From Eubacteriales bacterium (lineage in GTDB: Bacteria > Bacillota > Clostridia > Saccharofermentanales > DTU023): a stretch of DNA of 45,336 nt. A program made the position numbers and the translations under genes. Shown piece by piece: positions 12,402-26,711 of this stretch; within the stretch, counting starts at the first letter, position 1, and every line of letters begins with the position of its first letter. The notes under the pieces are model-generated. The model saw only the letters and a list, made by a program, of their open reading frames with translations. It did no database searches and was not told the origin of the DNA. Location: NCBI GenBank assembly GCA_030537595.1, contig JAUNVR010000005.1, positions 1 through 45,336 of the forward strand. Direction: 5' to 3'.

Positions 12402-15400
12402 TTAATCGTTAAGCCCCTTGAGTAAGCTTCTGAGCGTTTCCTTAGCGTCGCCGAGGAGGAGGTAGACCTTTGCACCGGGCTGGTCAGCTTCGCTGTAGAG
12501 GGGGTTTTCGACTCCGGCGTAGCCTGGCTGGCGATCGAAGTTACAGATGATGATCTGCTTAGAATCTGTGACTGAAAGTACCGGCATACCATAAATTGGG
12601 GTACCCTCAGCTGTATTGGCAGCAGGGTTAATTACGTCGTTTGCCCCGATGATAATTGTGACGTCAGTATCCTTGAAACTATCGTTGATACTTTCCATCT
12701 CATGGAGTTTTTCATAGGGGACGTCAACTTCTGCAAGCAGGACGTTCATATGCCCCGGCATTCTGCCGGCAACCGGATGAATTGCAAAGTCAACTGTCTT
12801 GCCTCTGTCCTCCAGTTCATCCATCAATTGTTTGACAATGGGTTGAGCCTGGGAGAGGGCCATACCATAACCTGGGACGATGATGACCCGCTCAGCCGCC
12901 TTCAAGCAGTCCGCGGGATTAGCTGAGCTTTTAGCTTCACTTCTCGCTTCAGAAGCTTCAGGCTGACTGTCTGCGTTCCGATACTGTTCTCTGAGTTCTT
13001 TTAAGCTGTCCTTAGCATCGCCGAGGATCAGTGCGACATGGTCGCCACCAGCTTTAGCCTCGCTATATAAGGGGTTAGGTACACCGGCGTAGCCCGGCTG
13101 CTCGTCAAAGTTACAGATGATGACGTGCTTGGCATTCTCAACTGAGAGCACTGGCATACCGTAGATCGGCGTTCCTTCTGCGGTGTTGGCAGCAGGGTTT
13201 ACAACGTCATTTGCACCGATAATTAAGGCGACGTCAGTCGAGGCAAATTCCCCATCGATCTCTGACATTTCGTGGAGCTTCTCGTAGGGTACGTCGACTT
13301 CCGCGAGTAGGACATTCATGTGCCCCGGCATTCTTCCGGCAACCGGGTGAATTGCAAAGTCGACTTTTTTACCAGCATCTTCGAGCTCGTCCATAAGTTG
13401 CTTAACCATGGGCTGGGCTTGGGATAAGGCCATGCCGTAACCCGGCACGATAATTACGCGCTCGGCGGATTTTAGCCAGGAGCCAGGATTGCTCTGTTTC
13501 TCGCTAGCTTGGGGACTAGCTTGCTGTGGGACCAAGGCGGCGCTGCGGTACTGCTTTTGTAGTTCTTTTAGACTGTCCTTTGCATCGCCTAAAACCAAGG
13601 CGACATGGTCGCCGCCGTCTTTAGCCTCAGTATATAAGGGGTTGGGTACACCGGCGTAGCCCGGCTGCTCGTCAAAGTTACAGATGATGACGTGCTTGGC
13701 ATTCTCAACTGAGAGCACTGGCATACCGTAGATCGGCGTTCCTTCTGCGGTGTTGGCAGCAGGGTTTACAACGTCATTTGCACCGATAATTAAGGCGACG
13801 TCAGTTGAGGCGAATTCCCCATCGATCTCTGACATTTCGTGGAGCTTCTCGTAGGGTACGTCAACTTCTGCGAGTAAGACATTCATGTGCCCTGGCATTC
13901 TTCCGGCGACCGGGTGAATGGCAAAGTCGACCTTTTTCCCGTCGCTTTCGAGCTCGTCCATTAATTGCTTAACAATGGGTTGAGCCTGCGATAAAGCCAT
14001 ACCATAACCCGGGACAATAATTACGCGCTCAGCATCCTTTAACCACTTTCCTGGTAGGTCGACACAGGGCTCTGTGGATTCTGAAACTGCGCTGCTTTGT
14101 CCGGCATTGCGGTACTGCTTTTGCAGCTCTTTTAGAGTTTCTTTCGCATCACCTAGGAGCAGTTGGACATGGTCCTCGCTGGCCTTGGCTTCAGCATATA
14201 GTGGGTTCGCGACTCCGGCGTAGCCTGGCTGCTCGTCGAAGTTACAGATAATGACGTGCTTGGCATTCTCGACTGAGAGCACGGGCATGCCGTAGATTGG
14301 AGTACCTTCTGCGGTATTTGCAGCCGGGTTTACTACGTCATTTGCACCAATGATTAAGGCGACATCAGTTGTCGCGAATTCGTCATTAATTGCATCCATC
14401 TCGAAAAGCTTCTCATAGGGCACATCAACTTCTGCGAGTAGGACATTCATGTGACCCGGCATTCTTCCGGCGACCGGGTGAATGGCAAAGTCGACCTTTT
14501 TCCCGTCGCTTTCGAGCTCGTCCATTAATTGCTTAACAATGGGTTGAGCCTGTGATAAGGCCATACCATAACCCGGGACAATAATTACGCGCTCGGCATC
14601 CTTTAACCAATCGCCAGGTGTAGCCTTAGCGCGAGCTGCCGGCTCAGCGGCTTGGGGAGCAGCCTGGCTAGGAGCCTGGGCTGGAGCGCTAGCGGGACTT
14701 GAGCTTTTGGCCGCTGCCTTAGGCTGGGCCGGGGCGGAAGTCTTGCCGAGTAGGATGTCCATCAGGTGACGATTCATTGAGCGGCACATAATCTGGGTCA
14801 AAAGCAGTCCCGAAGCACCGACAATACCGCCAACTGCTACTAGCAGGAGGTCACCAATTGCCATACCTGCAATCGCTCCAGCGACACCGGAGAAGGAGTT
14901 TAGAAGTGAGATGGTAATCGGCATATCTGCGCCGCCGACGCGGATGGCAAAGATGTAACCAAAGAGGTTACTCATCACTACCGCAAAGATGATTAGAATA
15001 ATTTTTGCCGCTCCAGATTCAAAGCTCGGGAGGAGGAAGGCAAAGACCGAGAGGGCCGAGAGGATTAGGCTCAGACTGGTCCACAGTTGGTGGCGCTTCC
15101 AGACGATGGGGCGCTGGTTCATCAGGCGGTGCAGCTTAGCTGCGGCAACTGCTGAACCTGACCAGGTCAGACCACCGACCATAATCGCCAGACCGGCGGT
15201 AAAGGTCGAGAAGGCATTGAGCTCACCACGCTGGACGGTCAAAGTTAAAATACCGGCGAGCATTGAGGCGAGACCACCAAAGCCGTTTAAGAGTCCGACC
15301 ATCTGGGGCATCTGAATCATTGCGACCTTACGCGAGAGATAGAGGCCACAGACTGTACCGATCAACATGCCAATCCAGAGTTCGTAAACTGTGAAAATCC

Positions 15401-15608
15401 CGAAGTACCAGAGGGTTAAGAGGATAGCTGCGAGCATTGAGCCTGCTCCGAGCAGATTTCCGCTGGCTGCTTTTTCGACCTTTGACATTCTCGAAATGCC
15501 AAGCAAGACGAGTAGCGAAAGAATCGCCGAGATAATGTAGTAAATAATCTGGGTTGAGCCTCCGGAGACTGGCTCAACAAGTAGGAATTGAGGTAAGAAA
15601 TTAAACAT
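12402..15608 (-). CDS. pntB: NAD(P) transhydrogenase beta subunit with four tandem domain III copies
   Basis: PntB forms most of the membrane proton channel (domain II) and the NADP(H)-binding domain III of the proton-translocating transhydrogenase. Typical PntB is about 460 residues with one domain III; this one is 1068. Residues 1-287 are a normal domain II with about nine hydrophobic helices. An Ala/Pro/Ser linker (288-331) follows. Four complete domain III units then occur at about 332-500, 520-689, 709-877 and 899-1064, joined by 19-21-residue Ser/Ala/Glu linkers. Each unit keeps VPGYGMALSQAQP, HPVAGRMPGHMNVLLAE, IIGANDV(V/I)NPAA, PGYAGVxNPLY and LLGDAK-type ends, so all four look able to bind NADP(H). 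Its ATG overlaps the pntA2 stop by one base (TAATG), behind AGGAGG. Confidence 0.95.
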   Translation of the reverse strand: MFNFLPQFLLVEPVSGGSTQIIYYIISAILSLLVLLGISRMSKVEKAASGNLLGAGSMLAAILLTLWYFGIFTVYELWIGMLIGTVCGLYLSRKVAMIQMPQMVGLLNGFGGLASMLAGILTLTVQRGELNAFSTFTAGLAIMVGGLTWSGSAVAAAKLHRLMNQRPIVWKRHQLWTSLSLILSALSVFAFLLPSFESGAAKIILIIFAVVMSNLFGYIFAIRVGGADMPITISLLNSFSGVAGAIAGMAIGDLLLVAVGGIVGASGLLLTQIMCRSMNRHLMDILLGKTSAPAQPKAAAKSSSPASAPAQAPSQAAPQAAEPAARAKATPGDWLKDAERVIIVPGYGMALSQAQPIVKQLMDELESDGKKVDFAIHPVAGRMPGHMNVLLAEVDVPYEKLFEMDAINDEFATTDVALIIGANDVVNPAANTAEGTPIYGMPVLSVENAKHVIICNFDEQPGYAGVANPLYAEAKASEDHVQLLLGDAKETLKELQKQYRNAGQSSAVSESTEPCVDLPGKWLKDAERVIIVPGYGMALSQAQPIVKQLMDELESDGKKVDFAIHPVAGRMPGHMNVLLAEVDVPYEKLHEMSEIDGEFASTDVALIIGANDVVNPAANTAEGTPIYGMPVLSVENAKHVIICNFDEQPGYAGVPNPLYTEAKDGGDHVALVLGDAKDSLKELQKQYRSAALVPQQASPQASEKQSNPGSWLKSAERVIIVPGYGMALSQAQPMVKQLMDELEDAGKKVDFAIHPVAGRMPGHMNVLLAEVDVPYEKLHEMSEIDGEFASTDVALIIGANDVVNPAANTAEGTPIYGMPVLSVENAKHVIICNFDEQPGYAGVPNPLYSEAKAGGDHVALILGDAKDSLKELREQYRNADSQPEASEARSEAKSSANPADCLKAAERVIIVPGYGMALSQAQPIVKQLMDELEDRGKTVDFAIHPVAGRMPGHMNVLLAEVDVPYEKLHEMESINDSFKDTDVTIIIGANDVINPAANTAEGTPIYGMPVLSVTDSKQIIICNFDRQPGYAGVENPLYSEADQPGAKVYLLLGDAKETLRSLLKGLND
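12417..12914 (-). repeat. pntB domain III, copy 4 (most divergent)
   Basis: Residues about 899-1064 of PntB. It differs most from the others: DCLKAAERV at its start, HEMESINDSFKDTDVTI, SVTDSKQIIICNFDRQ and YLLLGDAKETLRSLL at the end. NADP-site motifs are intact. Confidence 0.93.
12978..13484 (-). repeat. pntB domain III, copy 3
   Basis: Residues about 709-877 of PntB. Its central 100 residues are identical to those of copy 2, while its first part (QPMVKQ, EDAGKK) differs. Confidence 0.93.
13542..14051 (-). repeat. pntB domain III, copy 2
   Basis: Residues about 520-689 of PntB. It shares an exact 95-base block with copy 1 and an exact 161-base block (13645-13805) with copy 3 (13078-13238), which makes it a mosaic. 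Confidence 0.93.
14109..14615 (-). repeat. pntB domain III, copy 1
   Basis: Residues about 332-500 of PntB. It has FEMDAINDEFATTD where copies 2-3 have HEMSEIDGEFASTD. A 95-base block, 14458-14552, is identical to 13894-13988 in copy 2. Confidence 0.93.
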
Positions 15609-18612: not shown

Positions 18613-19683
18613 CTAGTTACCAAAGTTCATAACCACGTACTCACGGTTATCTGTTGGGTCGTAGTAGAGGGCGATGCCGACTCTAGTGTAGGCTGCGCTG
18701 ACCATGGTGCTGTAGTGGGCAGGGGAGTTGATGAAGGCCGTGAAGATCTGCTCGGGGGTCTTTGTTCCGGTGGTGAAAAAGCCGGTATTTTCGGCCAGTC
18801 CAGAATTCGCCCCGTAGACTGAGGCAATCCAGGTGAGCGCAAAGACTCCGCCGTGTGTGTGGCCGGTTGAGTCACCAGTTGCGCGATAGGAGACACCAAC
18901 TTCAGGTGCGCGCACGAGGGCGATTTCCTGCATCACGGCATCATTGACTAGCTGGTGGATGCCCAAGGAGGCTCGGTGCTGGTTCAAAAGGTTGATGATA
19001 GTCATCGCCCCAGCGTAGGTGTCGTGAATGCCGGCTGAGCCCTGGGCTGCAACAGTTCCACTTGATTGATTAGCTTGGTTTTGCTGGGCAATCACGGAAG
19101 CAGCGGCCTGCTGTTGGGCTGCATAGGCGGCGGCAGCTTGGGCTTGGGCAGCAGCAGCGGCCTGTGCCTCGAGTTCGGCTGCGTAAGCTTCGTCATCGGC
19201 TTTGAGACGGGCTCTTTGAATTTCGCTGGACTTAAGCTGCTCGCTCAATTGGAATTTCGCAAATGAGGATAATTTCTGGACTAAGGGGTCCTGATTACCG
19301 ACAATCATGGCAGTTCCAGGCTCAGAGCTGAGGTCGAGTCCAGTGCTGGGATCCTTATCTCCAACCTGGGCCTCAATTAATTGCTCAGGGGCTGTTTCAG
19401 ACTCCTGCTCTTCTGCACTTAGCTCCTCTTCGAGAGCTTCACTTGCGTCGGAATCTTCTTCAGATTCGCTTGCAATTTCCTGATCTGTGGCCGCTTCAGG
19501 GGCTGCGCTGCTTTCAGCAGGTTTGAGCTCAAAGTCCTCGGAATTATCGTCCTTTTGGCCGCAGGCAATTAGCGAGAGGCTAAACATTAGACAAAGCAGA
19601 ATTGCGGTCAATTTTTGGCCGTTAAATCTGGATTTACTAGGATTATTTTTTTGACTATTAAAAGCTCTGTTCTGGTAAGACAT
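18613..19683 (-). CDS. CAP/SCP-domain lipoprotein
   Basis: At 356 residues it has a lipoprotein signal with lipobox LIAC (C41), so it should be anchored on the outer face of the membrane. A long acidic Glu/Asp/Ser segment (about 45-112) follows. Next comes an Ala/Gln-rich helical stretch (about 150-205), and then a C-terminal CAP domain (about 225-356) with INLLNQHRASLGI, HTHGGVFALTW, ENTGFF, FINSPAHYSTMVSAAYTRVG and a final YVVMNFGN. Bacterial CAP proteins are common in Gram-positive envelopes; most have no defined activity. AAAGGAG lies 7 bases before the ATG, and an extended -10 (TGGTAATAT on the minus strand, around 19707-19715) may be its promoter. Confidence 0.88.
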   Translation of the reverse strand: MSYQNRAFNSQKNNPSKSRFNGQKLTAILLCLMFSLSLIACGQKDDNSEDFELKPAESSAAPEAATDQEIASESEEDSDASEALEEELSAEEQESETAPEQLIEAQVGDKDPSTGLDLSSEPGTAMIVGNQDPLVQKLSSFAKFQLSEQLKSSEIQRARLKADDEAYAAELEAQAAAAAQAQAAAAYAAQQQAAASVIAQQNQANQSSGTVAAQGSAGIHDTYAGAMTIINLLNQHRASLGIHQLVNDAVMQEIALVRAPEVGVSYRATGDSTGHTHGGVFALTWIASVYGANSGLAENTGFFTTGTKTPEQIFTAFINSPAHYSTMVSAAYTRVGIALYYDPTDNREYVVMNFGN

Positions 19684-20336: not shown

Positions 20337-20951
20337 ATGAAGCTCGATAAATATCATAAGATGGGCAACAAGCTTGTGGAAAAGATTTTCCCGCCTGAGC
20401 TAGAGGCCGAGATTAAATTGCGCTTGGCAGAATTAATTAATGAGAATCCCAATGATTCTAAGGCTTTAAGAAGACATAGTTACGCCGTTATTTACCCGAT
20501 GATTGCAGCAGTCCAAGTTAGACAAAAAAAGGGCCTAGAGAAGAGCGAAGCAATCGCTGCAGTCAGTCAGGACTACTTTCAGAAATTTGTGCTCCCGAAT
20601 AAAAAGATAATGCAGAAATTATTAAAGTTCCCCCTGGCCTATAAATTCTTTATTCCAATCTGTAGATTAGCGATGGGGACGCTTTATGGTGAAAAAGCAG
20701 AGTTCGTAAATGATCTGAAAGTAGCTAAAAATAACTCTTATAGCTATGACGTTCTAAAATGCCCTTATCATGAAATCTGCTCACGCTATAATTTAGCAGA
20801 GCTGGTCGATACCTACTGCACGACGGATGATATGGTTTACGGCGATTTACACGAAAAGATTGAATTTAAGCGCAGTAAGACCCTGGGTCGAGGTGACGAG
20901 CTTTGCGATTTTTGCTTTAAGGAAAAGTCTAAGACTTCGGGGTCGAAGTAA
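20337..20951 (+). CDS. L-2-amino-thiazoline-4-carboxylic acid hydrolase family protein
   Basis: The 204-residue protein has a helical first half and a Cys-rich C-terminal part: CPYHEICSRYNL, then YCTTDDMVYGDLH, KRSKTLGRGDELCDFCF. This spacing of cysteines and acidic residues is what I associate with the ATC-hydrolase-like family in Bacillota and related anaerobes. That family name comes from a Pseudomonas cysteine-synthesis enzyme; whether this member has that activity is unknown. The ATG follows AGGGGGAGGGGG, an unusually G-rich site. The gene looks more AT-rich than its neighbours and sits beside a tRNA and a possible integrase tail, so acquisition by transfer is plausible. Confidence 0.6.
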   Translation: MKLDKYHKMGNKLVEKIFPPELEAEIKLRLAELINENPNDSKALRRHSYAVIYPMIAAVQVRQKKGLEKSEAIAAVSQDYFQKFVLPNKKIMQKLLKFPLAYKFFIPICRLAMGTLYGEKAEFVNDLKVAKNNSYSYDVLKCPYHEICSRYNLAELVDTYCTTDDMVYGDLHEKIEFKRSKTLGRGDELCDFCFKEKSKTSGSK

Positions 20952-21061
20952 AGTTTTGAAAATCTCTCTGTTTTGGATTCCCCTAACTACTCTAGCTTTT
21001 TCAGGTAGAATGAAATTTACGTAAGCTAAGCTTGCATGGAAAGTTTAATACTGAGGTGAAT

Positions 21062-22258
21062 ATGTCCTATTATGCCCTGCTGCCCTGTCTTTTCGGAATA
21101 GAAGCAGCTTTAAAAAATGAACTTTTAGACCTAGGCTATTCTAAGTCTGATTTAAGCGTTGATGATGGCCTAGTTAAAGTTAAACTAGGCTCCGATTGGG
21201 TTTCAGAGCTTTTTAAGCTGAACTTAGAGCTGCGCACAGCGGAGCGGGTACGTCTCGAGCTTTTTACAGCAGAGGTCAGTGACTTCGATGCCTACTTTGA
21301 GCTGGTTAAAAGCTTCAATTGGCAAGATTGGATTCGGCCTGGCGAAGCTTTTACGATTAACGGTTCATCCCGAAAATCAAAGCTCTTTGGGGTTCCAGCC
21401 CTCCAGTCGCTTGCCAAGAAAGCGATTGTTGAGAGCTTATTAAAGGCCTGGAATCTTAAGGGGCAGCTGGCAGAGGACAAAAAGATTGGGGAAGTTAGAA
21501 TTAACTTTGCCTTTAATCAAGATCAGCTGAGTTTCAGCCTCGATACCAGTGGTGAAGGGCTACATAAGCGTGGCTATCGCCCATTAAATCACAGTGCCCC
21601 CCTGCGGGAGACCGTTGCGGCGGCCATTCTTTATTATGCTCATTATAAAAATGTAATCCGCTTCAATGAAAAGCTCTACGACCCATTTTGCGGCTCGGGA
21701 ACTTTTTTAGTCGAAGCGGCCTCCATCTTGTCCAATAAGGCCCCTGGCCTAGACCGTAGCTTTGCTATGGAGCGGGCAAACTTTGCCCAGCCTGTAAAAT
21801 TTGCCAGATTGAGAACCCAGGCCAAGCGGCTCTGGCAACCTGAGCTAATTAAGCCCGGCCTGATTAATGGCTCTGACCTTTATGCCTCAATCCTTCAAGA
21901 TGCAGAGCAGAATCTCAGTCGTGCAGGCTTTAAGTCCATGGTCGATTTGCGCCAACGTGATTTCCTGCAATTGACTGCAAAAGGTTTAGATAGCTGGCCG
22001 CAAGGTCCGGGTCTGCTGGTCGCCAACCCACCCTACGGAGAGCGATTAGGCGAGGTCGAAACAGCCCTCGAACTGACTGAAAAACTACTTGCAGTTGGCC
22101 TCGATTCAAAGCTAAATGAGCCCTGGCAGCTAGCCTTTATCCAAGCTGCGGAAGGGGCGGAAGAAATCTGCAAGGCTGCTGACCGTAAACGAAAGCTCTA
22201 TAACGGTTCAATTCAGGTTAAGCTCTACCAGTATTTCAAACACAGTCAAAAGCGCTAA
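21062..22258 (+). CDS. rlmL: THUMP-domain 23S rRNA (guanine-N2) methyltransferase, RlmL/YpsC-like
   Basis: The 398-residue enzyme starts at 21062, behind GAGGTGA; an in-frame ATG ten codons upstream has no site. It has an N-terminal ferredoxin-like/THUMP region (about 1-155). A Rossmann methyltransferase domain follows, with DPFCGSGTFLVEAA (SAM-binding motif I) and the catalytic NPPYGERLG (motif IV, N-P-P-Y), the signature of enzymes that methylate exocyclic amino groups. E. coli RlmKL makes m2G2445; single-domain Bacillota homologs such as YpsC are presumed to do the same. LHKRGYRPLNHSAPLRETVA is a strong family block. Confidence 0.88.
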   Translation: MSYYALLPCLFGIEAALKNELLDLGYSKSDLSVDDGLVKVKLGSDWVSELFKLNLELRTAERVRLELFTAEVSDFDAYFELVKSFNWQDWIRPGEAFTINGSSRKSKLFGVPALQSLAKKAIVESLLKAWNLKGQLAEDKKIGEVRINFAFNQDQLSFSLDTSGEGLHKRGYRPLNHSAPLRETVAAAILYYAHYKNVIRFNEKLYDPFCGSGTFLVEAASILSNKAPGLDRSFAMERANFAQPVKFARLRTQAKRLWQPELIKPGLINGSDLYASILQDAEQNLSRAGFKSMVDLRQRDFLQLTAKGLDSWPQGPGLLVANPPYGERLGEVETALELTEKLLAVGLDSKLNEPWQLAFIQAAEGAEEICKAADRKRKLYNGSIQVKLYQYFKHSQKR

Positions 22259-22460
22259 GTTTAAGCTAAGATCTGCTCTTTAGAATAATTTGCTTTATAC
22301 AGCCCGAAATCCTTAAAAATAGAAGATGAGATGTAATGATGTGTAGCCGGATTAAGGGCTTAGGGGATAGCGCATAAATAAACATCAAGACTAATAATAA
22401 AAAGTAAGCTAAAAGCTGCAAAGGCTGATAAATCGTTAGCGGCGAAAATTTGAAATTAAC

Positions 22461-22571
22461 TTATCAACGTTTCAATTATCTGCAAAAGCCCATATCTAAG
22501 GCTTTGATGATAAAATGTTGATAAGTTTTAGGCTTTGCAACTTATGCACAGTTTTATTAACATTATCAACA
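22461..22571. other. Cluster of DnaA-box-like 9-mers
   Basis: The 395 bases between the rlmL-like gene and the FHA gene contain no ORF with coding character. Five DnaA-box-like sites occur: TTATCAACG (22461-22469), TTATCAACA on the minus strand (22524-22516), TTATGCACA (22542-22550), TTATTAACA (22554-22562) and TTATCAACA (22563-22571). The last three are nearly contiguous and in one direction. TTATGCACA matches the TTATNCACA consensus exactly; the TTATCAACA sites have one mismatch. Flanks are AT-rich. It could be an origin element, a DnaA-titrating site or a DnaA-controlled promoter. Confidence 0.55.
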
Positions 22572-22653
22572 ATAACTGCAGCTTAAATTCACTTTATCTT
22601 TCACCCTTACTGAACTGTATTTCAGATTGTTAAATTTTGATCACAATTCCTTC

Positions 22654-23082
22654 TCAATCAGCCTCAAAATAAAAATTGAGATCTGCGAATTTAAGTAGAC
22701 ATTTGTCCGGCAGCAGGATTTGCTTGCGGCGCTGCAGCCTGCGGCCATTGAGGTAGGTGCCGTTTTTACTGGCGAAATCTTCAATATAGAAATTCCCTGC
22801 ATATTGACACAGACGACAGTGGCGTAGGCAGATGCTGCTTTCGCTTAAAACCAGGTCATTCAACTCAGGGTCACGGCCGATCCAAAACTCCTTGTTAAAG
22901 ACAAAGTAACGGGCTTTAATATAGCCACTTTGGTCGGTTTTAGCGAGGAGGGCGATTCGCCCACCCTCCTCGCCGTCAATCAGAGAATTGGCCTCGCGGT
23001 AGCGGGGATCTTCCAGTTCTTTTAAGCGTAAGCGCAAGGCTGAGTGAAACTTTTTATAGTATTTCTTGGCTTCTTTAATCAT
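22654..23082 (-). CDS. FHA-domain protein of the Tad-like locus
   Basis: The 142-residue protein (start at 23082, overlapping the pilin-like gene by 8 bases) has a charged N-terminal helix and a C-terminal FHA domain. The FHA phosphothreonine-binding motifs are FWIGRDPELNDL (GR), the Ser-rich SESSICLRHCRL (S..H) and DFASKNGTYLNGRRL (NGTYLNG). FHA proteins are frequent members of Tad loci in Clostridia, where they are thought to respond to Ser/Thr phosphorylation. An ATG 10 codons upstream would deepen the overlap. It is the last gene of the minus-strand group; no clear terminator was seen after it. Confidence 0.85.
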   Translation of the reverse strand: MIKEAKKYYKKFHSALRLRLKELEDPRYREANSLIDGEEGGRIALLAKTDQSGYIKARYFVFNKEFWIGRDPELNDLVLSESSICLRHCRLCQYAGNFYIEDFASKNGTYLNGRRLQRRKQILLPDKCLLKFADLNFYFEAD

Positions 23083-23380
23083 AGGTGACCTGGTCGATAA
23101 TTGAGTGGTCAAAGACCTTGGCGATTAAATCCTTGGCGAAATTTGAGATGGCCTCTCTAAAAATCAGGGCAATTGCGATCAAGATGGCAATAATTAGGAC
23201 AATCTCGACTGTCCCCAAGGCCTCAGTTTCGCTTAGCTTTGCCTTTATTTTTGACCTTCTAGGCTGCTCTTCCTTTCTGCCTTGAGTCCAGGCTAAAAGA
23301 TCGTGGAGGCGGATTGTGCTGGCGTGCTTTTGCTTTAGCCTTTCTAGGCTGCGGAAAGATTTTAAAGATTTTTCGTACAT
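23075..23380 (-). CDS. Flp1-like pilin/small Tad membrane protein
   Basis: The 101-residue product begins at the ATG at 23380, which has AAAGGAG 7 bases upstream; a longer frame from 23440 would overlap the TadBC gene. A long basic, soluble N-terminal part (1-65) precedes the pilin-like sequence ALGTVEIVLIIAILIAIALI, with a conserved Glu at the start of the helix, and then a short amphipathic tail. This matches the Flp1-like pilins of Clostridia more than classic short Flp. The leader before the presumed Gly cleavage point is unusually long for a prepilin. No prepilin peptidase gene lies in the window. Confidence 0.7.
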   Translation of the reverse strand: MYEKSLKSFRSLERLKQKHASTIRLHDLLAWTQGRKEEQPRRSKIKAKLSETEALGTVEIVLIIAILIAIALIFREAISNFAKDLIAKVFDHSIIDQVTYD

Positions 23381-23411
23381 GCTGATCTCCTTTTTTTGAC
23401 TGTTTTTCCTT

Positions 23412-24965
23412 TTAAATAGTGATATTGCTAAAACTAGCAATCGCTGGCAGGATGCTGGTCGCTAAAATGACTAGCAAGTCAAGCCCCATTGGAATGACTA
23501 GGGCTAGGTTTTGCCTTTCCAGCTTGGCTCGCATTGCGTTGCGGTAAACCTGCCAACAAGCGTTGGCTTGAAGCTCGAGAATGTCTAAAAGCTCTTTACC
23601 GCCATCGCGGGCGTAACGCACAATTAAGGCCAGCGCAGCGCTAATTTCGCGTGAGGGTAGGTGGCGACTGAGCTCGGCTAGGGCCTGCTCAGCTGGCACG
23701 GAATTTTGAATCCGCCGATTCAGGAGCAGTAGGTCGCGCTCCAAAATGCTATATGTACTCTGATCATCACTTAGGCTCTCAGCCTGCAAAGCAATTGCCT
23801 TATCCAAGGAAAGTCCGCTCTTCAAGAGTATCGACATCAGATTTAGAAAGTCTGGATATTCTAGGCGGTAGCTTTCGTTTTTAACTTTCTTGGCTTCCCA
23901 TAAACGCAAGTCTTGAGCTAGGGGTAAAAGCGGAATAAGAATTAGAAAATGAATTGAGAGCAAGAAGGTTAAACTTAGTCCTAAAGCTAAGGAAATCAGA
24001 GCGTAGTGCAATTTCTGGCGGCAGTAATTTGGCCATGGGTCAGTGGATTCTTCGCTGTAGACAAAGCGCACGGAGGCGGCTAGGTTTAGGCCTAAACCCC
24101 AGGGCAAGAGGCTAAGCAGTAAGTCGGCCCGGCGATAATCTGAATTTTTTAAAGCGTAGCGCTTTAGCTTCGGTGCTTTTAACTTCCTCCGGCGGTAGGG
24201 GTTTTGTCTGGCGATTAAAGCCAAGCTGATGCTTGCAGCAAAGACCGCTAGAAGATAAAGAAAGTTCAAGGCCTGATTGGCATAGGCCAAAGATTTTAGG
24301 CTTTGGCCATAAGAGCCCCGGCCGATGACTGCCGCCATGATAAAGGGGAGGAAAAGCAGGATAAAAGCTTCTGAATTCTTTGCGCTCTGCTCTGCTTGAA
24401 TTTCTTTTTGCGTCGAAATCTCTGCGTTCAGACTGCGGTGACTTTGCCTTACATAGACATCAATGCGGCCACCGAAGTGGTCGAGGAAGGGCAAGACCCG
24501 GACAAAAGAACGTGCTTTAGGGTGATTAAAGTCTGCCTGGAAAAGATCGAGGCTGCGCTCTAAACTGACCTGAGCCTCGAGTGAAGCGCGCAGACGATCG
24601 AGGCAGCGGAAGAATTGGCTTTGCTGGCCAAGCTGTGAGGCCAATCTAGGCGCGGCATTAGTCAGAGCGGCACTTAAGGTTTCCCCAGCAGCGAGTCGGG
24701 CCGAGAGGTACTCTAAAAACATTCTGAACTGCTCCAGCTCCAGATTGCTACTACGATTAGCCTGGATTTTACCCAGGGCCTTTGCCAGCATAACTGTTGC
24801 GAGGAAAATAATTGGCCAGGGGCGATTGTCAAATTGTGGCCAGAGCTCCCAGCTTAAAAGAGCAAGGCCAAAGGCGGGTAGGACAGCCATTAAAAGCTCC
24901 TTGATCCGCTTTAGAGATCTTGGCCTAGGCTTTTTCAGGATTTTAATTTTTGGCTTAGTTTTCAT
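23412..24965 (-). CDS. tadBC: Fused TadB-TadC inner-membrane platform protein
   Basis: The 517-residue protein contains two type II secretion F (T2SSF) domains. The first half (helices near 24-60, cytoplasmic F domain about 77-195, helices near 198-215 and 231-251) corresponds to TadB. The second half (helices near 321-350, F domain about 367-480, final helix near 487-510) corresponds to TadC. The repeated signatures are FRMFLEYLSARLAAGETLSAAL and LNLMSILLKSGLSLDKAI, each cut here to its core. TadB and TadC are normally separate proteins of about 300 residues. The start overlaps tadA by 11 bases. The protein is expected to form the platform moved by the TadA ATPase. Confidence 0.82.
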   Translation of the reverse strand: MKTKPKIKILKKPRPRSLKRIKELLMAVLPAFGLALLSWELWPQFDNRPWPIIFLATVMLAKALGKIQANRSSNLELEQFRMFLEYLSARLAAGETLSAALTNAAPRLASQLGQQSQFFRCLDRLRASLEAQVSLERSLDLFQADFNHPKARSFVRVLPFLDHFGGRIDVYVRQSHRSLNAEISTQKEIQAEQSAKNSEAFILLFLPFIMAAVIGRGSYGQSLKSLAYANQALNFLYLLAVFAASISLALIARQNPYRRRKLKAPKLKRYALKNSDYRRADLLLSLLPWGLGLNLAASVRFVYSEESTDPWPNYCRQKLHYALISLALGLSLTFLLSIHFLILIPLLPLAQDLRLWEAKKVKNESYRLEYPDFLNLMSILLKSGLSLDKAIALQAESLSDDQSTYSILERDLLLLNRRIQNSVPAEQALAELSRHLPSREISAALALIVRYARDGGKELLDILELQANACWQVYRNAMRAKLERQNLALVIPMGLDLLVILATSILPAIASFSNITI

Positions 24966-26106
24966 CTATTAACTCCAAGTCCCCATCAGCTTGACGGTAG
25001 AATACTTTTTTTAACTCGAACTGTTGACCATCGAAACCCTTAATTTGGGCAATTTCGCGGACCACCCGGCGCCCACTGCTTAAGCGTTCGAGGTGGATGA
25101 TCAAATCCAGGGTTGAAGCCAAGAGGCGGCGGATTGCTTCCCAGGGGAGGGAAGAATTCATCAGAATCATTAGGGCCAGTCGGTCGAGCATCTCGAGGCA
25201 GTTATTGCCGTGACCAGTAGACATCGAACCAGGGTGACCGGTGCTCATGGCCTGGATCATCTCGAAGCTTTCCGCGCCACGGACCTCGCCGACAATGATT
25301 CGGTCAGGACGTAACCGCAAAGAGCTTTTGATTAAATCTTCCAGGCTCACCGCTCCCTGACCATCTGGTCCGGCTTGCCTAGCTTCGAGGCGTAAAAGGT
25401 TCGGCAGTCCCTGTAAATCCAACTCAGCAGCATCCTCAATCGTGATGATTCTTTCGTGCGGCGGGATGAGGCCGGAAAGTGCGTTCAAGAAAGTGGTCTT
25501 GCCGCTACCGGTCCCGCCAGAAATAAAAATATTGGCTTTGTTCAGGACTTCTGCTTCGAGGTATTTGGCGGCTTCTGGACTCAAGCTCTTGCGGCGCACC
25601 AGCTCACTTAAAGAAGGGCGAATACCGGTAAAGCGGCGGATGGCTAAACAAGGGCCGGAGGGCGCAGCTGGTGGCAAGACAGCGTGGACCCGGGAACCGT
25701 CGCTTAAACGCATGCCGGCAAGTGGCTTTTGCTCATTGATTAGGCGGTTCGCCCGCCCGAAACTGCGAGTGATAACCTGGGTTAGGTGCTCGCGATCATC
25801 AAAGACCGCAGCCGTTGGCCGAATTTTCCCAGCTTTTTCAATGAAAACAGACTTTGGGCCGTTGACCATAATCTCCGTGACTTCAGGGTCATCAATGTAT
25901 GCTTGGAGGATGTCAAAACCGCGCATCGTATTATAAATTTCTCTGACAAAGCGCTTTTGCGCTTGCAAGCTGAGTTGACGCTGCCTGTTATAGCGGCTGA
26001 CATAGCGGCTGAGAACGGGTAGGAGCTCTGTTGCAGAGGCTTTTTCTAAGCCGGGATTTTCACGTAAGAGCTCGGCGATTAGCTTTTGTCTCGCTTGGTA
26101 GTTCAT
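24955..26106 (-). CDS. tadA: Tad-type secretion ATPase TadA/CpaF
   Basis: At 383 residues this is a GspE-superfamily hexameric ATPase that powers pilus assembly or secretion. Seen are the N-terminal helical part, DDPEVTEIMVNGPKSVFIE, Walker A GGTGSGKTT (197-205), the Asp box IITIEDAAEL, the Walker B region RPDRIIVGEVRGAE, and the His box AMSTGHPGSMSTGHGNN. This subfamily pattern is typical of TadA/CpaF. It overlaps the upstream gene by four bases (ATGA) and the downstream tadBC by 11, so the group is translated as a unit. Confidence 0.93.
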   Translation of the reverse strand: MNYQARQKLIAELLRENPGLEKASATELLPVLSRYVSRYNRQRQLSLQAQKRFVREIYNTMRGFDILQAYIDDPEVTEIMVNGPKSVFIEKAGKIRPTAAVFDDREHLTQVITRSFGRANRLINEQKPLAGMRLSDGSRVHAVLPPAAPSGPCLAIRRFTGIRPSLSELVRRKSLSPEAAKYLEAEVLNKANIFISGGTGSGKTTFLNALSGLIPPHERIITIEDAAELDLQGLPNLLRLEARQAGPDGQGAVSLEDLIKSSLRLRPDRIIVGEVRGAESFEMIQAMSTGHPGSMSTGHGNNCLEMLDRLALMILMNSSLPWEAIRRLLASTLDLIIHLERLSSGRRVVREIAQIKGFDGQQFELKKVFYRQADGDLELIDEN

Positions 26107-26711
26107 GCTTGCAGCCCAGGACTCTCTGCTTTCAAACAGAGCAGCTCAACTTGTGGCGGAACTTCGGCAAAGAGTTTTTGCAAGGCTCGCCGACTCTCCT
26201 TGGCAGCGTAGCCCCTGGTCGCAGGGTCAAAACAAAGGCTGTCACTTAAAGCAGCGGTGATTGCAACTTGCTCCCAACTCAGGCCATCGCAGTCGATAAG
26301 TCCGAAAACAGGCGGCGGATACTCTCTGATTAACTTTGCAAAGTTCTTGATTAATCTTCTTAGGACCTCATTGCTGAGCTGAGTTAAATCATCGACCTGG
26401 CCGCTAATTAGGGGGATAAAAAATCCCTCTTGACTGCGCTTAAAAACTCGGCCGAAGTCAGACTCGGTGCTTTCTGCCCCGACCTCCCAAGCTAATAGCA
26501 GGTCATTTAACTTACTTTCTGTAGCAGCACTCTCGTCCTTTGGCCAAAGGTCAATCCGATAGGTGCTCATTAGTGGCAGATAAAACACGCTGTAGGCTTG
26601 TCTTGCCTTACGGGCTAAAAGCTCCTTGCGATATTGCTTAGCTAAGCTGCCTTCAATTTGGACCAGACATTGTAATTTGCGCTGGGCATTAATTCTCTCT
26701 TGCTCTGGCAT
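26103..26711 (-). CDS. Tad-locus protein, possibly a degenerate TadZ/CpaE-like ATPase
   Basis: I do not firmly recognise this 202-residue protein. It starts at an ATG with AGGAG 7 bases upstream, so its N terminus looks genuine. There is no P-loop and no receiver domain. The middle, FFIPLISGQVDDLTQLSNEV followed by FGLIDCDGLSWEQVAI and then SDSLCF, has the strand-helix rhythm of the MinD/CpaE fold after its switch II region. TadZ/CpaE is normally encoded just before tadA, as here. It may be a nucleotide-free localisation factor. It is the first gene of the minus-strand Tad group and overlaps tadA by four bases. Confidence 0.5.
   Translation of the reverse strand: MPEQERINAQRKLQCLVQIEGSLAKQYRKELLARKARQAYSVFYLPLMSTYRIDLWPKDESAATESKLNDLLLAWEVGAESTESDFGRVFKRSQEGFFIPLISGQVDDLTQLSNEVLRRLIKNFAKLIREYPPPVFGLIDCDGLSWEQVAITAALSDSLCFDPATRGYAAKESRRALQKLFAEVPPQVELLCLKAESPGLQA

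Follow-up and report, generated by a model that had tools for sequence, protein, structure and literature searches.

The interval at positions 22461–22571 of the window (the whole stretch of DNA analysed here, 45,336 nucleotides) is the sole DnaA-box cluster outside oriC in a 1.55 Mb MAG (1,546,611 bases in 35 contigs, with 96% completeness). Its core is a triplet of boxes in a single orientation, with 3 nt between the first and second boxes and 0 nt between the second and third, and this architecture is kept in the gap that follows rlmL in relatives from the same family. We consider it reasonably probable that the locus is a chromosomal DnaA-assembly site outside oriC, of the DnaA-box-cluster kind, which restrains initiation. 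The fixed order and spacing of the boxes, which recur at sites distant from the origin in many Firmicutes, probably denote a dedicated replication brake or sensor rather than an origin.

The box cluster and its chromosomal setting

A first-pass annotation, made from the letters of the window, had described five DnaA-box-like 9-mers, the last three nearly contiguous, in an AT-rich gap of 395 bases, and the boxes, the length of the gap, and its base composition were all as described (Table 1). Its impression that such a density is rare by chance also held. TTATNMACA occurs at 65 sites in the whole MAG, four of which fall inside 56 bp at this locus, where the Poisson expectation is 1.4e-7 per genome. 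The only other such sites <200 bp apart in the MAG are those flanking dnaA on contig C7, and the count of 9-mers that had been proposed as a check revealed no second cluster outside oriC. The locus has several boxes, is non-coding, lies away from oriC, and is denser than chance, as expected of an extra-oriC cluster. Contrary to that annotation, gene direction does change here: the rlmL-like gene and the FHA gene converge, with the 3' ends of both at the gap, and the latter opens a minus-strand block (22654–26711).

Table 1. Features of the box-bearing gap and its two neighbours, in window coordinates
Feature	Position	Strand	Remarks
RlmL-like rRNA methyltransferase (THUMP + UPF0020), left neighbour	21032..22258	+	
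AT-rich non-coding gap	22259..22653		395 bp; GC 0.322 versus 0.49 for the window; between convergent genes
Outlying DnaA-box-like 9-mer TTATCAACG	22461..22469	+	Outside the conserved triplet
GGCTTT motif	22500..22505	+	Spans −42 to −37 relative to box 1, where the order-wide set has GGC.TT
Inverted DnaA box TTATCAACA	22516..22524	−	At −26 from the triplet
Triplet box 1 TTATGCACA	22542..22550	+	Less-used box type in the dialect of family f1
Triplet box 2 TTATTAACA	22554..22562	+	Type preferred in f1; 3 nt past box 1
Triplet box 3 TTATCAACA	22563..22571	+	Preferred type; abuts box 2
FHA-domain protein, right neighbour	22654..23112	−	In a minus-strand Tad-like secretion block up to 26711

The Tad-like genes (T2SSF and T2SSE) and the FHA protein at 22654–26711 (minus strand) are found near the triplet in f1, even after the loss of rlmL. 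Elsewhere in the window, positions 12402–15608 (minus strand) encode a PntB-like transhydrogenase subunit of 1068 aa, in which the NADP-binding domain was recognized by eye in four tandem copies and four stretches matched Pfam PNTB. Positions 18613–19683 (minus strand) encode a CAP-domain protein that is secreted and has a long linker rich in Ala and Gln, and a CAP protein also lies close to the triplet in genus g4. The product of 20337–20951 (plus strand) matches Pfam ATC_hydrolase (L-2-amino-thiazoline-4-carboxylic acid hydrolase).

Dense boxes in AT-rich DNA are what an origin would display, but it is very improbable that the locus is a replication origin, present or former. The dnaA gene lies on the separate contig C7, followed by dnaN, recF, and gyrB (these three named by eye from translations), with a pair of boxes on each side of dnaA. 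The GC skew of C7 is mostly ≤0 before dnaA and positive after it, whereas on C34, the contig that carries the window, 34 of the 35 bins have a positive skew, all but the short last one. The flip at dnaA on C7, with none on C34, places the cluster within one replication arm, and identity with oriC was rejected on these grounds. The first-pass argument against oriC, drawn in part from the absence of dnaA and dnaN nearby, was therefore sound, and the GC skew check that it had recommended agrees. Related genomes have a distant triplet together with boxes flanking dnaA on both sides, and a DnaA-trio run beside the triplet was not clearly seen by eye. In 12 genomes in which both occur on one long contig, the triplets are 127 to 1163 kb from dnaA. 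This set of 14 triplets, from genomes picked for long contigs, had a median distance from dnaA of 17% of the chromosome length (KS p 0.026 versus uniform). It comprises only triplets with gaps of 3 and 0 nt that share a long contig with dnaA; left out, from one group of 24 genomes, were other spacings and cases with dnaA on another or a short contig. From other genomes examined, G190 and G201 are included and G196 and G200 (dnaA and triplet 235 and 162 kb apart, on contigs <0.6 Mb) are not. The resemblance of the triplet to the bipartite, dnaA-flanking oriC lies in the clade's oriC box dialect, which is used at both, whereas the triplet locus has neither a skew change nor an adjacent dnaA or dnaN.

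Conservation of the triplet in the order and the phylum

A search with TTATNMACA boxes that tolerated one mismatch detected the triplet in 113 of the order's 188 genomes, and the reversed control gave none. A broader pattern, with box position 3 relaxed to A or T and positions 5 and 6 left unrestricted, identified it in 164 of the 188, with 2 reversed hits in total, and its frequencies by family were 36/38 in f1, 3/12 in f2, 105/115 in f3, and 20/23 in f4. The triplet usually occurs once per genome and frequently twice in f4, where triplets away from rlmL or proA, often second copies, lie next to genes recognized by eye as glmU, groEL, and PTS-like (e.g., L198, L200, L202, and L203). An apparent absence from genus g21 (0/23 with the TTATNMACA pattern) was rejected as a pattern artefact, as 8/8 of those examined carry the triplet with TTTTCCACA boxes.

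Ungapped identity inside the triplet was 0.95 in genus g2, 0.97 in g5, 0.93 in g6, and 0.99 in g7, and was 0.81 over 10 loci from families f2–f4. For the same four genera and the f2–f4 set, identity in the two adjacent 30-bp blocks was 0.29–0.86, and in the four genera it drops to 0.44–0.59 over the next 30 bp downstream of the triplet. In the window's own genus, represented by two genomes, the triplet and the preceding 30 bp are equally similar (0.67 each), and G001 has a degenerate box 3. The low match rate in f2 and this own-genus identity, no higher than that of the 30 bp before, count against our best explanation; the evidence as a whole supports selection on the geometry of the triplet.

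Upstream of the triplet, an ungapped alignment of 44 loci from across the order contained GGC.TT at −42 to −37 (G at −42 in 38/44 and T at −38 in 41/44), AA at −17/−16, CCTTGTC at −14 to −8, and AG at −2/−1, with GGC.TT and CCTTGTC in fixed register with the triplet. In the window, GGCTTT begins exactly at −42 and the inverted box lies at −26; in the single other genome of the genus, from a sister species, the inverted box at the same −26 is TTATCCACA. TTGTC at −12 to −8 is absent from the window, although it is conserved in the order set, where it is a possible candidate for a Spo0A box.

The neighbours of the triplet are far less constant. Flanking genes were taken from a mechanical ORF caller, and the names rpiB, upp, malQ, glmU, and groEL were assigned to neighbours by eye. 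In f2, f3, and f4, most of the loci examined read rlmL–triplet–proA or are rearranged versions of this order, and in some of them the triplet is inverted with respect to rlmL and proA alike, or rlmL points away. In f1, the FHA/Tad block adjoins the triplet and proA does not. In genus g6, rlmL is missing from 14/14 genomes, and the triplet persists in 13/14, beside different genes. Within the order, the triplet holds its place while its neighbours change, invert, or vanish.

Beyond the order, TTATNMACA-N3-TTATNMACATTATNMACA was found in at least 116 stretches from species-representative genomes, and among those listed, 113 belonged to Bacillota, two to Bacteroidota, and one to no assigned phylum. 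Among these 116 listed matches, dnaA was ≤800 bp away in only four. The recurrent homes, at the same distance, were hpf (29/116) and tsaD (21/116, on its 3' side where this was read), and one of tsaD, hpf, comF, rlmL, or proA was present in 56/116. Of these triplets, 27 overlap an ORF of ≥70 aa, mostly short ORFs. When both gaps were allowed to range from 0 to 12, three boxes were found in 127 of 398 genomes in an even sample of the phylum, and the reversed control gave 2 hits, in one genome. Among the 150 matches listed (from 117 genomes), 94 (from 80 genomes) had the spacing (3,0) out of 169 possible spacings, and the runner-up, (0,3), accounted for 10.

Box dialects and the DnaA recognition helix

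The recognition helix of DnaA contacts the bases of the box. This helix reads NHAT in 11/11 DnaA sequences from f1, KHTT in 5/5 from genus g20, and DHTT or DHST in the others. Near dnaA, position 6 of the box was A in 43 of 54 boxes from six f1 genomes, whereas in nine DH[TS]T genomes it was A in 15 and C in 43 of 65 (Fisher 1.6e-9, uncorrected for shared descent). In g20, TTTTGAACA was the commonest box near dnaA (11/22). The NHAT (f1) and KHTT (g20) variants, with their shifted oriC box consensus, can be seen at dnaA on C7 of the window's genome (G000) and at L209–L218, L258, L261, L267, L270, and L271.

In all three groups (f1, DH[TS]T, and g20), the triplets use the same box variants as the oriC of their own clade, and the two box types are distributed unevenly within the triplet. 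Among the (3,0) matches listed across the phylum, where canonical TTATCCACA dominates, position 6 was A in box 1 in 77/94 and C in boxes 2 and 3 in 184/188. The pattern is mirrored in f1, with C in box 1 in 31/31 and A in boxes 2 and 3 in 57/62; these counts come from 31 of the 36 matching f1 genomes, three g4 genomes, G001, and G008 having been left out. In g20 (75 matches, after two unlike second matches, in G094 and G095, were dropped), G at position 5 never occurred in box 1 (0/75) and occurred in 70/75 each of boxes 2 and 3; the triplets of five g20 genomes (G088, G097, G108, G137, and G140) are built from CC or CA boxes. The counts from the three dialects indicate that the less-used box type almost always comes first. 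The coupling of helix to box type is not absolute, as G010 has the NHAT helix yet TTATCCACA at oriC, and its triplet also contains TTATCCACA; furthermore, the co-variation of helix and boxes rests on about two DnaA changes.

Because the boxes of the triplet track both the oriC boxes of the clade and the helix that reads them, and box 1 is of the less-used type in three dialects, these comparisons point to DnaA as the putative ligand of the triplet. A 9-mer is short, and this one is AT-rich, which might favour a chance array or a repeat unrelated to DnaA, but the probability of either is negligible, given the reversed-pattern controls (0 in 188, 2 in 188, and 2 in 398 genomes) and the co-variation of the triplet boxes with the oriC boxes and the DnaA helix.

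Proposed function and comparison with known systems

In the mechanism that we propose, boxes 2 and 3 would be the anchoring sites for DnaA. Box 1 lies 12 bp upstream, in head-to-tail register, and would be filled only upon DnaA oligomerisation, mainly by ATP-DnaA. If box 1 is filled by oligomerising DnaA, each locus would hold a small DnaA complex and draw active initiator from the free pool, and passage of the fork, by doubling the locus, may help to delay re-initiation. We infer occupancy in the cell, the preference for ATP, and the negative action on initiation. Precedents exist in Bacillus subtilis, for which the sources are cited here as far as their available portions go. The 3' ends of gcp (= tsaD) and ydiF are among the strongest DnaA sites of that species, with a 16-fold preference for ATP over ADP (PMC4447404), and the deletion of six clusters together leads to early initiation (PMC5295017 and PMC13220808, citing Okumura 2012). 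One review, in its available part, describes these clusters as having no significant regulatory role (PMC5295017), and the clusters outside oriC are there regarded mainly as a passive sink for DnaA (PMC13220808, PMC5295017). The limits on re-initiation in Bacillota are thought to be unlike those in Escherichia coli (PMC13220808, PMC5295017, in the same portions). For pure titration affinity alone would suffice, and geometry this strict therefore suggests more than a sink. The B. subtilis clusters, especially gcp/ydiF, resemble the present locus in lying outside oriC, in intergenic DNA of a member of the Bacillota, and in having multiple boxes, and gcp and ydiF also converge. The available portions of the published descriptions, with which our comparison was made by description and not by sequence, give box numbers and no conserved triplet. 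The locus described here differs in its rlmL/FHA home, its one copy, and its altered box dialect.

That a review calls such clusters unimportant, and that a sink needs no strict spacing, make an activity like that of DARS or datA a serious rival, although we rate it as rather unlikely. Under it, the site would be catalytic and would place DnaA protomers for nucleotide exchange (DARS) or hydrolysis (datA), and the fixed spacing and order, which exceed the requirements of a sink, would be accounted for. In E. coli MG1655, with core positions taken from the available text of PMC5742627, the cores of both DARS1 and DARS2 consist of a weaker box, 3 nt, a stronger box, 5 nt, and an inverted box. The first step, from a weaker box across 3 nt to a stronger box, is shared with the triplet, as are the use of three boxes at fixed spacing and a place in intergenic DNA away from oriC. 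The essential datA boxes are unidirectional, and datA, with directional boxes outside oriC, lowers active DnaA (PMC5742627, available text); the inverted box in the window's genus could furthermore serve as an opposed element. However, the DARS cores end in an inverted box after a 5-nt gap, whereas the third box here is direct and abutting, so that by geometry the locus shares the tandem 12-bp step with DARS but is not one of its members. DARS2 requires IHF and Fis (PMC5742627, in its available text), and datA has a requirement of its own, an IHF site between its essential boxes. B. subtilis is said, in the available part of PMC13220808, to be without DARS and datA, with no regulator of the nucleotide state of DnaA known there.

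A DnaA-regulated promoter or operator, comparable with that of B. subtilis sda, would instead have the triplet control a transcript, either that of a neighbouring gene or an unannotated one. Some clusters are places at which DnaA acts as a transcription factor (PMC4447404, available portion), and the triplet lies upstream of hpf, proA, or glmU in some relatives. This reading is nevertheless improbable: both flanking genes end at the gap, so that the triplet is upstream of neither annotated neighbour, and both the neighbours and their relative orientation vary among relatives. An operator for a flanking gene was accordingly rejected, at this locus by gene direction and for the class by the changing neighbours. 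Among the listed matches, 99 had both flanks. The flanks are codirectional in 66 of these (32 on one strand and 34 on the other), diverge in 17, and converge in 16, with no promoter bias apparent. Promoter-like and terminator-like matches showed no excess over chance level, and a terminator or promoter signal was rejected for this reason. An Rfam search returned nothing above the cut-off, and its single sub-threshold match falls inside rlmL, outside the gap, which led us to reject a small or structured RNA at the gap. Of the three candidates put forward in the first-pass annotation, the DnaA-binding control locus is the one that finds support, in conservation and co-variation with DnaA; oriC falls, and the promoter of a flanking gene is unlikely.

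Starting from the DnaA-assembly site that we favour, a wider proposal can be advanced tentatively, as a possibility about which we remain doubtful. The triplet may be a Bacillota-wide, vertically kept element with a grammar of its own, on which a defined DnaA trimer would change or sense nucleotide state as a counterpart of datA and DARS, and which would have moved among tsaD, hpf, and rlmL/proA and been rewritten along with the reading helix. A literature search with four abutting-box strings found no paper, and no description of the conserved triplet was found in the literature searched, the scope of which ended short of Okumura 2012 and subscription papers. The locus, conserved and belonging to a class already known, has a triplet grammar that was not found described in that literature; it is more interesting than first stated, with a function that we infer.

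A single-copy element of strict geometry that has outlasted changes both in its neighbours and in the DnaA that reads it argues for phylum-wide selection of DnaA assembly outside oriC. The triplet offers a precise target to delete, respace, and assay. The NHAT and KHTT helices, with their altered boxes, constitute a natural experiment in which an essential initiator has shifted its sites across the chromosome.
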